Shown: piece after piece, positions 42,146 to 45,772 of the stretch
How positions within the stretch are numbered: position 1 is the stretch's first letter
Layout: every line of letters starts with the position of its first letter
NCBI GenBank assembly: GCA_028875575.1
Contig: JAPPDF010000073.1
Location: 1 to 64,000, forward strand
Direction of reading: 5' to 3'
DNA: 64,000 nucleotides
From: Acidobacteriota bacterium
Lineage (GTDB): Bacteria > Acidobacteriota > Terriglobia > Versatilivoradales > Versatilivoraceae
Made by a program: the position numbers and the translations under genes
Notes under the pieces: model-generated
Databases searched by the model: none
What the model saw: the letters and a program-made list of their open reading frames with translations, nothing else
Told to the model about the DNA's origin: nothing

Positions 42146-43477
42146 ATGCTGAATGGAATCTTCGTTGTCATCGTCCTGTTTTCCATCCTGATGGCGGCCT
42201 TCACGGGTCGCATGGAGATGTTGAGCAAGGCCGTGCTAGAGTCGGCCCGCTCGGCCGTCACCCTCGCCCTGGGTCTCATCGGAGTTATGGCCTTCTTCCT
42301 GGGCTTAATGCGAGTGGCCGCCGACGGGGGCTTGTTGCGGATGATGGCCCGCGCCGTACATCCCGTGATGCGATTCCTCTTCCCGGCCATCCCCAGGGAT
42401 CACCCGGCCATGAGCGCCATGATCCTGAATATCACCTCCAACCTGCTGGGGCTTGGGAACGCGGCGACCCCGTTTGGACTCAAGGCCATGATGGAGCTGG
42501 ACCGACTCAACAACGACAAGGGAACTGCAACCAACGCCATGGTGCTCTTCCTGGCTCTCAACACCTCCGGCCTGGCGCTGCTGCCCCTGGGTGTCATCAG
42601 CTTGAGAGCGGCGGCCGGCTCCCAGGATGCTGCAGGAATTTTGGCGACTACCTGGTTTGCCAGTGGATGCGCCACCGTAGCCGCGATTGTGGCGGCGACT
42701 CTGCTGGCCCGAACGCCACGCTATCGCCTGGCAGGAGCGACATCCAACCAGGCTGACCAGGACCGGCGGGTTGAAGCAACCTCCTCCGATCAGGTCCAGG
42801 CAGAGGACGCGTCCATGACGCCCCAGTCCCAACTGGAACTGGTTCGACCCCGCTGGGGAAAGCCGGTAGTGCTCGGCTTTTACCTGGCTCTGTTAGCTGC
42901 TCTGACCGTGCATATCGCGCAACAGGTTGGTACCACCCCGGCGATGGACCTGGTGCGCAGCATCATGTCTTTTTGGATGTTGCCTGCTCTGATCGCGGGA
43001 CTGGTGCTGTTCGGATGGACTCGCGGAGTGAAAGTCTACGAATCGCTGGTGGAAGGAGCCAAGGAGGGTTTTCAGGTCGCCGTGAAAATCATTCCCTACC
43101 TGGTTGCCATTTTGGTGGCCATCGGGATATTCCGGGCATCGGGGGGTCTGGAACTGTTGGCCCGGGGTATCGGTCCGGTCACCAACCTGATCGGCATGCC
43201 CGCAGAAGCGTTGCCGGTGGCCCTGGTCCGGCCACTCTCCGGAAGTGGAGCTCTGGGAGTAATGACCGAGGTCATGAACGCCCACGGGCCCGACTCCTTC
43301 ACCGGCTACATGGTCTGTACCTTTAACGGAAGCACCGATACCACCTTCTACATTCTGGCGGTATATTTCGGTTCTGTAGGCATCAAGAAGACCCGCCACG
43401 CCCTGCCGGCCTGCCTGACCGCTGATGTCACCGGCATCCTGGCGGCGGTCCTGATTGTGAACCTGCTGTTCGGGTAG
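42146..43477 (+). CDS. Nucleoside-recognition (Gate) membrane protein, SpmA-SpmB fusion
   Basis: A 443-residue polytopic membrane protein with two homologous halves. The N-terminal half (about 1-195) matches SpmA (NITSNLLGLGNAATPFGLKAM, LFLALNTSGLALLP). After an acidic, soluble linker (about 196-240) the C-terminal half matches SpmB (KIIPYLVAILVAIGIFRASG, GTNDTTFYILAVYFGSV variant STDTTFYILAVYFGSV). Separate spmA and spmB occur in spore formers, where they affect spore core dehydration. Fused forms are widespread in non-spore-formers and probably transport a small solute. About 10 helices are predicted. The ATG at 42146 is the first plausible start. Confidence 0.88.
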   Translation: MLNGIFVVIVLFSILMAAFTGRMEMLSKAVLESARSAVTLALGLIGVMAFFLGLMRVAADGGLLRMMARAVHPVMRFLFPAIPRDHPAMSAMILNITSNLLGLGNAATPFGLKAMMELDRLNNDKGTATNAMVLFLALNTSGLALLPLGVISLRAAAGSQDAAGILATTWFASGCATVAAIVAATLLARTPRYRLAGATSNQADQDRRVEATSSDQVQAEDASMTPQSQLELVRPRWGKPVVLGFYLALLAALTVHIAQQVGTTPAMDLVRSIMSFWMLPALIAGLVLFGWTRGVKVYESLVEGAKEGFQVAVKIIPYLVAILVAIGIFRASGGLELLARGIGPVTNLIGMPAEALPVALVRPLSGSGALGVMTEVMNAHGPDSFTGYMVCTFNGSTDTTFYILAVYFGSVGIKKTRHALPACLTADVTGILAAVLIVNLLFG

Positions 43478-43557
43478 AGTTCAAACGGGCTTCTTCAATG
43501 GACCGATTGCCCCGACCCGTCCGTCGTTAGCCGAGAACCTCAGATCAGGGAGGCAGC

Positions 43558-44115
43558 ATGGCCTACATCCGAGTGATTGAACCGGAAGCAGCCGACGGCG
43601 CTCTGCAAGCTGAATATGCCGCGGCCACAGAGCGTGCCGGCAAGGTCTTCAACATCCTGAAGATCCAGAGCCTCAATGCTGCCGCCCTTCACGCCAGCAT
43701 GGCGCTCTATCGGGCCACCATGCACGGACCCTCCGGTCTTTCCAGGGCCGAGCGGGAAATGCTGGCCACGGTGGTCTCTCAACTCAACGACTGCTTCTAC
43801 TGAGTGGAAGGCCACGGGGAGGATCTCCGTGTTGCGACAGGAAATCGGTTGCTGGCCGAGACCGTGAAGCGGGATTACCGGGAAGCTCCATTGGACGCCC
43901 GCCAGCGGGCCTTGTGCGAATTTGCCGAAAAGCTCACCCGCCAGCCCTCCCGAATGACCGCCGAGGACTGCCAACGGTTGAGAAGCGAGGGGCTCAGCGA
44001 TCGAGATATCCTGGATGCCGTCGAAGTGATTTCCTACTTCAATTACATCAACCGCGTGGCCGACGGGTTGGGAGTCGACCTGGAACCTGAAATGAAGCGC
44101 CGTGACACAGAGTGA
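43558..44115 (+). CDS. AhpD-like/carboxymuconolactone-decarboxylase-fold selenoprotein (Sec at residue 82)
   Basis: 185 residues if TGA 43801-43803 is decoded as selenocysteine. AhpD-type peroxidases use E-x11-C-x2-C-x3-H; here E67, C79, U82 and H86 fall at those exact spacings (EREMLATVVSQ then DCFYU VEGHGEDL). The frame stays open and homologous past TGA, through KRDYREAPLDARQRALCEFA and ISYFNYINRVADGLGVD, to the real stop at 44113-44115. Start ATG 43558 has GGGAGG five bases upstream. A SECIS-like hairpin follows the TGA. Such proteins reduce peroxides or alkylhydroperoxides. AhpD-like selenoproteins are known from marine metagenomes, which supports this reading. A nonsense mutation is the alternative. 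selA/B/C/D are not in the window. Confidence 0.85.
43813..43831 (+). promoter_or_regulatory. Predicted bacterial SECIS element
   Basis: An mRNA hairpin begins 10 bases after the in-frame TGA. Eight pairs join CACGGGGA (43813-43820) to TCTCCGTG (43824-43831), one of them a G-U wobble, closing a GGA loop. The loop starts 17 bases after TGA and opens with G, both within the known range for bacterial SECIS elements bound by SelB. It lies inside the coding sequence as expected in bacteria. Confidence 0.7.
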
Positions 44116-44176
44116 CAACGGCCGCCTTCCCGGAACCCATGATGGTGCGCCGGCTTGCTCCGGAGTGACCTGACCG

Positions 44177-45772
44177 ATGAACCGCCGACTCTTTCTCGTC
44201 CTGATCTGGGGATTGGGCGTTTTGACCGCCGCCCGCTGCGGCATGCTTCAGGAAGAATTGTGCCGTGTCCGTCTCTCGCTGGTCGACGGCAGCACCGGCA
44301 AGCCCGTCCCGGGGGTGATTCGCGGTTTCGTCCAGGGCCAGGAGACAGCGGTTCCGATCCATGGCCTACTGGAAAGGGGACAAGGCGTCGGATCGGTGGC
44401 CCTGCAGCAACAGGGCAAACGGCCGCCCCGCCGCCCCATCCATGACTGGTACGTCCTGTCCGAGCCCAGCGAAGTGACGCTGCCCCAAAAACCCCTGCGG
44501 CTGGAAGCCTTCTCGGGACTTGAAACGGAGATGGCGACCCTGGAGGTCGACCTCAGCCAGAGGAATGACGCCTCCTTGACCCTTTCCCTGAATTCATTCA
44601 GCCACATCAAGGACAAGAAGTGGTTTGGCGGCAACACCCACCTGCACCTCTTCAGGCTCGCGCCGGAAGAGGCTGATCGCTACCTGAGCACAATCCCGGC
44701 CGCGGACCGATTGGACGTCTTGTTCACCTCCTATCTGATCCGCCCGTCCGAAGACGCCGATTACATCACCAACCGCTATCCGGTAGGGGACCTGACCCAA
44801 TTCCATTCCACCGGCGTGCTGGTCAATCAGGGTGAGGAACATCGTCACAACCTGACTCCCTGGAGTGGAGGCTACGGTCACGTCATGCTGCTGAACATCA
44901 GGAAGCTCATCCAGCCGGTCAGCATCGGTCCGGGCATCACGGGGGCCGGCACTGACGGGATTCCCCTGCAGGAAGGGATCGATGAAGCGCATCGTCAGGG
45001 AGGAACGACCATTTGGTGCCACAACGACTTAGGACTGGAACGGGTGGTCAACTTCGTCCTGGGCAAGGTGGATGCCCAGAATATCTTTGACGGGCTGTCC
45101 CTGGAGGACTATCCCCAATTTGAGGACACCTTTTATCACTACCTCAATGCCGGGCTCAGGGTTCCCTTCTCGACCGGCACCGATTGGTTCCTGTTCGACC
45201 TTGCCAGAGCCTACACCCGGGTTGCGGAACCTCTGGGAATCGCCTCCTGGCTGGAAGCGCTCAAGCGGGGACGGTCCTTCATCACCAACGGCCCCCTGTT
45301 TCACTTCCTGGTGGAGGACCAAGGGATCGGAGATACCCTCTCACTGAAATCCCCCGGGGAGGTCGGAGTCGAGGGTCGGGTGTCGGGACGAATCGACTTC
45401 GATCACCTGGAACTGATCCACAACGGCCGGGTGGTCGATCGCATCCCGTCCCGAGCAACCGGGGAACACTTTTCGGCCGAGTTGAAGAAGACGTTTGCGG
45501 TGGAAGAGCCCGGGTGGCTGGCGCTGAGAGTCTCCGGGCAGGCTGACAGCGAGTACGGGTTGCCCATCTTCGGACATACCTCGGCGATCTACCTCGAGGT
45601 GGACGGAAAATCGATCCGCCAACCCGCCGCGGTGGTCCATCTAAGGAGAGAGATTCAGGCGGCGAGAACTACGGTGGCCGAAGAGGCACTCTTCGCCACG
45701 CCCGAGGAACGAAAGCGGGTGCTGGACCTCTATGACCGCGGTCTTGCGGCCCTTGATGGAGGGTCTCGATAA
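44177..45772 (+). CDS. CehA/McbA family metallohydrolase (PHP-like), exported
   Basis: A 531-residue protein with an N-terminal signal peptide (RRLFLVLIWGLGVLTAARC) that may be a lipoprotein signal (Cys near 21). A beta-rich N-terminal part (about 25-145) precedes a PHP-type barrel: NTHLHLF near 152-158 starts the metal site, then LVNQGEEHRHN, YGHVMLLNI, GTTIWCHNDLG and STGTDWF. The C-terminal part (about 390-490) is an Ig-like sandwich. CehA hydrolyses carbaryl; relatives cleave esters or phosphates. Environmental substrates are unknown. It lies 61 bases after the selenoprotein stop, so possibly co-transcribed. Confidence 0.86.
   Translation: MNRRLFLVLIWGLGVLTAARCGMLQEELCRVRLSLVDGSTGKPVPGVIRGFVQGQETAVPIHGLLERGQGVGSVALQQQGKRPPRRPIHDWYVLSEPSEVTLPQKPLRLEAFSGLETEMATLEVDLSQRNDASLTLSLNSFSHIKDKKWFGGNTHLHLFRLAPEEADRYLSTIPAADRLDVLFTSYLIRPSEDADYITNRYPVGDLTQFHSTGVLVNQGEEHRHNLTPWSGGYGHVMLLNIRKLIQPVSIGPGITGAGTDGIPLQEGIDEAHRQGGTTIWCHNDLGLERVVNFVLGKVDAQNIFDGLSLEDYPQFEDTFYHYLNAGLRVPFSTGTDWFLFDLARAYTRVAEPLGIASWLEALKRGRSFITNGPLFHFLVEDQGIGDTLSLKSPGEVGVEGRVSGRIDFDHLELIHNGRVVDRIPSRATGEHFSAELKKTFAVEEPGWLALRVSGQADSEYGLPIFGHTSAIYLEVDGKSIRQPAAVVHLRREIQAARTTVAEEALFATPEERKRVLDLYDRGLAALDGGSR

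Follow-up and report, generated by a model that had tools for sequence, protein, structure and literature searches.

An in-frame TGA predicted to encode selenocysteine in an AhpD-like TIGR01926 protein of an Acidobacteriota bacterium

On sequence evidence, the 43558-44115 gene of this Acidobacteriota bacterium is a functional selenoprotein gene, and its TGA at codon 82 is a genuine selenocysteine (Sec) codon. The gene lies on the forward strand of the window, the 64-kb stretch of DNA analysed here. Direct reading gives a 185-codon frame with this TGA (43801-43803) as its sole interruption and a second TGA (44113-44115) as its terminal stop, as the initial annotation had described. Glu67, Cys79, TGA82 and His86 follow the spacing E-x11-C-x2-[TGA]-x3-H, which occurs exactly once in the six frames of the window. 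TGA82 thereby occupies the position of the second cysteine in the E-x11-C-x2-C-x3-H motif of the peroxidase-related CMD/AhpD family (TIGR01926). As a whole, the data are best explained, with a probability of about 0.88, by SelB- and hairpin-driven Sec insertion into an AhpD-like thiol oxidoreductase with peroxide chemistry. Translation table 11 splits the gene into exactly two fragments, the mis-annotation that had been foreseen, so automatic annotation would overlook an AhpD-like Sec enzyme. The features are as follows.

43547-43553, forward strand: AGGGAGG, a Shine-Dalgarno-like site 4 nt 5' of the ATG, from direct reading
43558-44115, forward strand: predicted Sec-containing TIGR01926 AhpD-like (CMD) protein, 185 aa, Sec82, from profiles, AlphaFold and the PDB match 6k40
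43756-43758, forward strand: Glu67 codon, aligned to M. tuberculosis AhpD Glu118
43792-43794, forward strand: Cys79 codon, aligned to M. tuberculosis AhpD Cys130
43801-43803, forward strand: predicted Sec82 codon TGA, aligned to M. tuberculosis AhpD Cys133
43813-43815, forward strand: His86 codon, also the hairpin foot, aligned to M. tuberculosis AhpD His137
43813-43831, forward strand: predicted bacterial SECIS hairpin, from energy, codon shuffles and covariation

Comparison of profiles and folds identifies the product as an all-helical, AhpD-like thiol oxidoreductase of the TIGR01926 family. The read-through protein matches the TIGR01926 model 'peroxidase-related enzyme' with 163.9 bits (E 3e-48, cut-off 81.8) over residues 3-177, so the match spans the TGA, and the family resemblance claimed for the part beyond it is real. 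It also matches Pfam CMD, and its AhpD relay E-x11-C-x2-C/U-x3-H is complete and conserved, as expected of a TIGR01926 member. AlphaFold, using 12 sequences, produces an all-helical model (pLDDT 85.9, pTM 0.79) whose nearest fold is D. radiodurans AhpD 6k40 (TM 0.83, 40% identity). The solved structures 6k40, 2pfx, 3c1l and 2oyo all match across the TGA and share fold, length and the E-x11-C-x2-x-x3-H arrangement at 36-41% identity, yet they carry Cys at the second position, where the Sec82 protein has Sec, and need no SECIS element.

Profile positions 56-104 align with residues 107-156 of the M. tuberculosis AhpD chain at an offset of 51, which makes E67, C79, U82 and H86 the equivalents of Glu118, Cys130, Cys133 and His137, the relay residues named for that enzyme (PMC3141380). 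The active-site helix pair and these four residues are alike in M. tuberculosis AhpD (1gu9, 1me5), but beyond that helix pair the protein is very distant, and it lacks Sec. The initial annotation had placed the TGA at the resolving cysteine. The codon does replace the second catalytic Cys, but its alignment to Cys133 makes Sec82 probably the attacking residue rather than the resolving one. Koshkin and co-workers reportedly found in 2003 that Cys133 of AhpD loses its proton to the Glu118-His137 relay and then attacks the peroxide. An attacking position is a common place for Sec.

The host genome contains the genes needed for Sec synthesis and insertion, as had been predicted. The 4.49-Mb assembly is estimated to be 100% complete, and a search found selC (tRNA-Sec with a UCA anticodon, 69.4 bits) on contig C54, selB as a 636-codon frame on C67, selA on C89 (E 4e-128) and selD on C52 (L058, G000:C52:502-1428; E 8.4e-103). 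The selD gene carries its own in-frame TGA within CAGU and probably encodes a Sec-containing SelD. A peroxiredoxin-family gene on a separate contig (L100, G000:C86:22491-22862) also has an in-frame TGA (FTGG-U-TAEC) and is probably a further selenoprotein gene of this host. Within the 64-kb window, an eye screen of mechanically generated candidates revealed no other plausible C/U-motif gene coding on both sides of its TGA. Among named genomes, Ca. Versatilivorator vitaminiformans and another Acidobacteriota MAG come closest (89% protein identity). MAGs of this kind are presumably sponge-derived. Neither Ca. Versatilivorator nor selenocysteine in Acidobacteriota from sponges turned up in the papers searched.

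Comparison with homologs shows that the TGA is widely conserved. It occupies the Sec column in 65/70 homologs with an aligned active site, from Acidobacteriota, Planctomycetota and Marinimicrobia, a count in which two of the 65 are repeats, as the genus-member loci L042/L043 equal L014/L015 and entered the structure tests only once. The other five have TGC, TGT or TGG, giving CxxC (L038, L041), SxxC (L025, L039) or CxxW (L024). The 70 leave out L054, in which only query residues 82-182 align and the site codon lies outside the family motif, and the partial matches L055-L057, which lack the active site. The same codon-82 TGA stands in three same-genus genomes, including this one, and in about 60 other homologs, which speaks against a TGC or TGT misread at 43801-43803. 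A search of 396 genomes from the phylum gave 50 matches at E <= 1e-35, every one with a TGA, and the 29 newly fetched among them (L064-L092) have it at codon 82. The Sec form is thus the rule for this AhpD-like TIGR01926 subfamily in Acidobacteriota. Among 61 genomes (this one and 60 relatives), 23 hold a homolog whose Sec column is TGA, and SelB is present in 22 of these; the one lacking it is 84% complete. Homologs carried on plasmids in other phyla have TGC in 5/6 and TCA in 1/6, and phage records contained no homolog of the gene. Four same-genus genomes (G001, G002, G004 and G006) have SelB and no homolog at E <= 1e-20.

These comparisons bear on two readings in which codon 82 would not encode an amino acid. 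The table 11 split into two fragments is what a nonsense mutation in a pseudogene, or an assembly error, would give. The probability of either is negligible, since the identical TGA recurs in dozens of independent genomes from three phyla, a frequency (65/70) that rules out chance or sequencing error as its cause. Stops are not scattered at random through the aligned homologs, and dN/dS for ten homolog pairs is 0.07-0.27 before the TGA and 0.06-0.36 after it, indicating purifying selection on both halves and a second half maintained as protein. Intact Sec machinery and a conserved hairpin argue in the same direction. It is also scarcely credible that TGA82 is an ordinary stop and that a second, independent protein begins at GTG 43804. 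This GTG does lie directly 3' of the TGA in the present copy, but many relatives carry ATC, ACG or other codons there; moreover, the TGA cuts through the active site, and fold and family model are continuous across it.

The recoding signal is predicted immediately downstream. CACGGGGA-GGA-UCUCCGUG begins 10 nt after the TGA and can form an 8-bp stem with a 3-nt loop.

43813-43820 with 43824-43831, forward strand: predicted SECIS stem; apical loop GGA at 43821-43823, 17 nt from the TGA

A 2026 review describes bacterial SECIS elements as having a loop of 3-9 nt with G among its first two positions, a stem of 4-16 bp, a spacing of 16-37 nt and an MFE <= -7.5 (PMC13188914). With its 3-nt GGA loop, 8 bp, 17-nt spacing and folding energy of -10.1 kcal/mol (z -3.34 for 43813-43831), the hairpin falls within every one of these limits. 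It is also stronger than expected from synonymous-codon shuffles (p 0.017). A single 50-nt fold after the TGA is no better than shuffles (z -0.15), and the hairpin alone stands out. Among 63 Sec genes, the hairpin is likewise stronger than in synonymous-codon shuffles (mean z 2.3, median p 0.03), and in six non-Sec sequences, which include the doubtfully aligned L054, it is not (p 0.31-0.73). An Rfam scan of 43000-44600 found no match, and Rfam may hold no model covering such an element.

Covariation supports pairing in two distinct registers. In the first, which spans +10 to +28 in 36 sequences, pair 17-27 switches between G-C (24 sequences) and C-G (9), proportions biased towards structure because sequences were sorted into registers by pairing; the 3' side of this swap is a silent Leu change from CTC to CTG. 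Covariation here is 0.159 versus 0.083 in shuffles, with 0/500 as high, and 0.012-0.074 in slid controls. The second register, found in 21 other sequences, has a 7-bp stem from +18 to +37 with a CGGGCC-type loop at +25, and its covariation is 0.324 versus 0.171 in shuffles, again with 0/500 as high; for both registers, the controls remove relatedness only in part. A GAUCUC segment provides the loop and 3' arm in one register and the 5' arm in the other. Register may have switched repeatedly: mapped on the tree, it requires 6 changes versus 17.9 in shuffles, although well-supported branches force only one.

Relatives that have lost Sec, to Trp in L024 and to SxxC in L025, offer a compact natural experiment, since the hairpin has disappeared along with it; none of the few Cys or Trp homologs carries it. 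Both genes are nested inside the Sec clade, and on the tree both are losses of Sec. L024 (G033) has TGG (Trp) at the column, retains Cys79 and has a broken hairpin; its position within the clade and the missing hairpin mark a derived loss. Its downstream dN/dS is 0.061 against the TGA sister L021. In L025 (G018) and L039 (G038), Cys stands at the Sec column and Ser takes the place of the first Cys. With a SECIS present, E. coli can insert Sec at UGG (PMC3834832), but L024 differs in that its hairpin is gone. The TGG of L024 might also be taken to mean that TGA82 is read as tryptophan under an altered code. Such a code has almost no likelihood: TGA is the terminal stop of this gene and of 36/65 Sec homologs in all, tRNA-Sec and SelB are present, and L024 itself is a derived loss. 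Together, the two registers and the disappearance of the hairpin with Sec make the evolution of a recoding signal within coding sequence testable.

Under the preferred reading, SelB bound to hairpin 43813-43831 would bring Sec-tRNA(UCA) to UGA 43801-43803, and translation would run on to 44115. By analogy with AhpD, the Glu67-His86 relay would ionise Sec82, whose selenolate would attack H2O2 or an organic hydroperoxide and be oxidised to a selenenic acid. Cys79 may then resolve this intermediate into a Cys-Sec bridge, which a dithiol donor, for example lipoamide or thioredoxin, could reduce. The Sec82 protein would thus be expected to contain selenium and to act as a peroxidase. The evidence of peroxidase activity found for TIGR01926 proteins is D. 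radiodurans genetics, in which loss of AhpD makes the bacterium sensitive to H2O2 and the CxxC proves important (PMC8945050). No redox gene adjoins the 43558-44115 gene to name the electron donor, and the flanking genes are syntenic within the genus only.

It is unlikely that the enzyme, with Sec inserted as proposed, mainly catalyses something other than peroxide reduction, namely another CMD-fold redox reaction such as a reductive dehalogenation like that of the debrominase Bmp8, or the reduction of a partner protein. Functions vary across the CMD superfamily, no neighbouring gene points to a peroxidase role, and Bmp8 (6ohi) appears among both the fold matches (TM 0.79) and the profile matches (E 8.6e-5). 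Bmp8 aligns in fold and active-site region, but it catalyses a different reaction at only 14% identity, whereas peroxidase-related proteins are nearest in both structure and sequence (6k40, 40%) and the complete E-C-C/U-H relay is kept. A more speculative idea, to which very little probability is given, is that the Sec clade, almost without CxxC members in Acidobacteriota, catalyses a reaction beyond the reach of Cys, for example a reductive dehalogenation that a selenolate drives within the CMD fold, as a bacterial analogue of deiodinases.

The gene adds a member to a known type of selenoprotein, and the suggestion that its principle was already established holds. AhpD-like CxxU selenoproteins appear in the Sargasso Sea (PMC1088965) and GOS (PMC2398784) studies, and the 2026 review lists a TIGR01926 CxxU selenoprotein by name (PMC13188914). 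Such entries (e.g. MCB9421940.1) share the family model and the Sec position (CxxU) with the present gene, which differs in that its Acidobacteriota host genome encodes a full set of Sec machinery. The accessible parts of the AhpD-like selenoprotein literature make no mention of Sec dominance in Acidobacteriota, of two SECIS registers or of Sec-to-Trp replacement. Another model, NF041238 (alkylhydroperoxidase-related (seleno)protein CFYUT), shares the CFYU motif and aligns at its positions 151-342 (E 2.6e-21), but the score of 76.3 bits lies below its cut-off of 175, and the model has 357 positions against 185 aa in the Sec82 protein. Finally, dS against the congener L014 is 0.086 5' of the TGA and 0.30 3' of it, a contrast that suggests a recombination tract inside the 43558-44115 gene.
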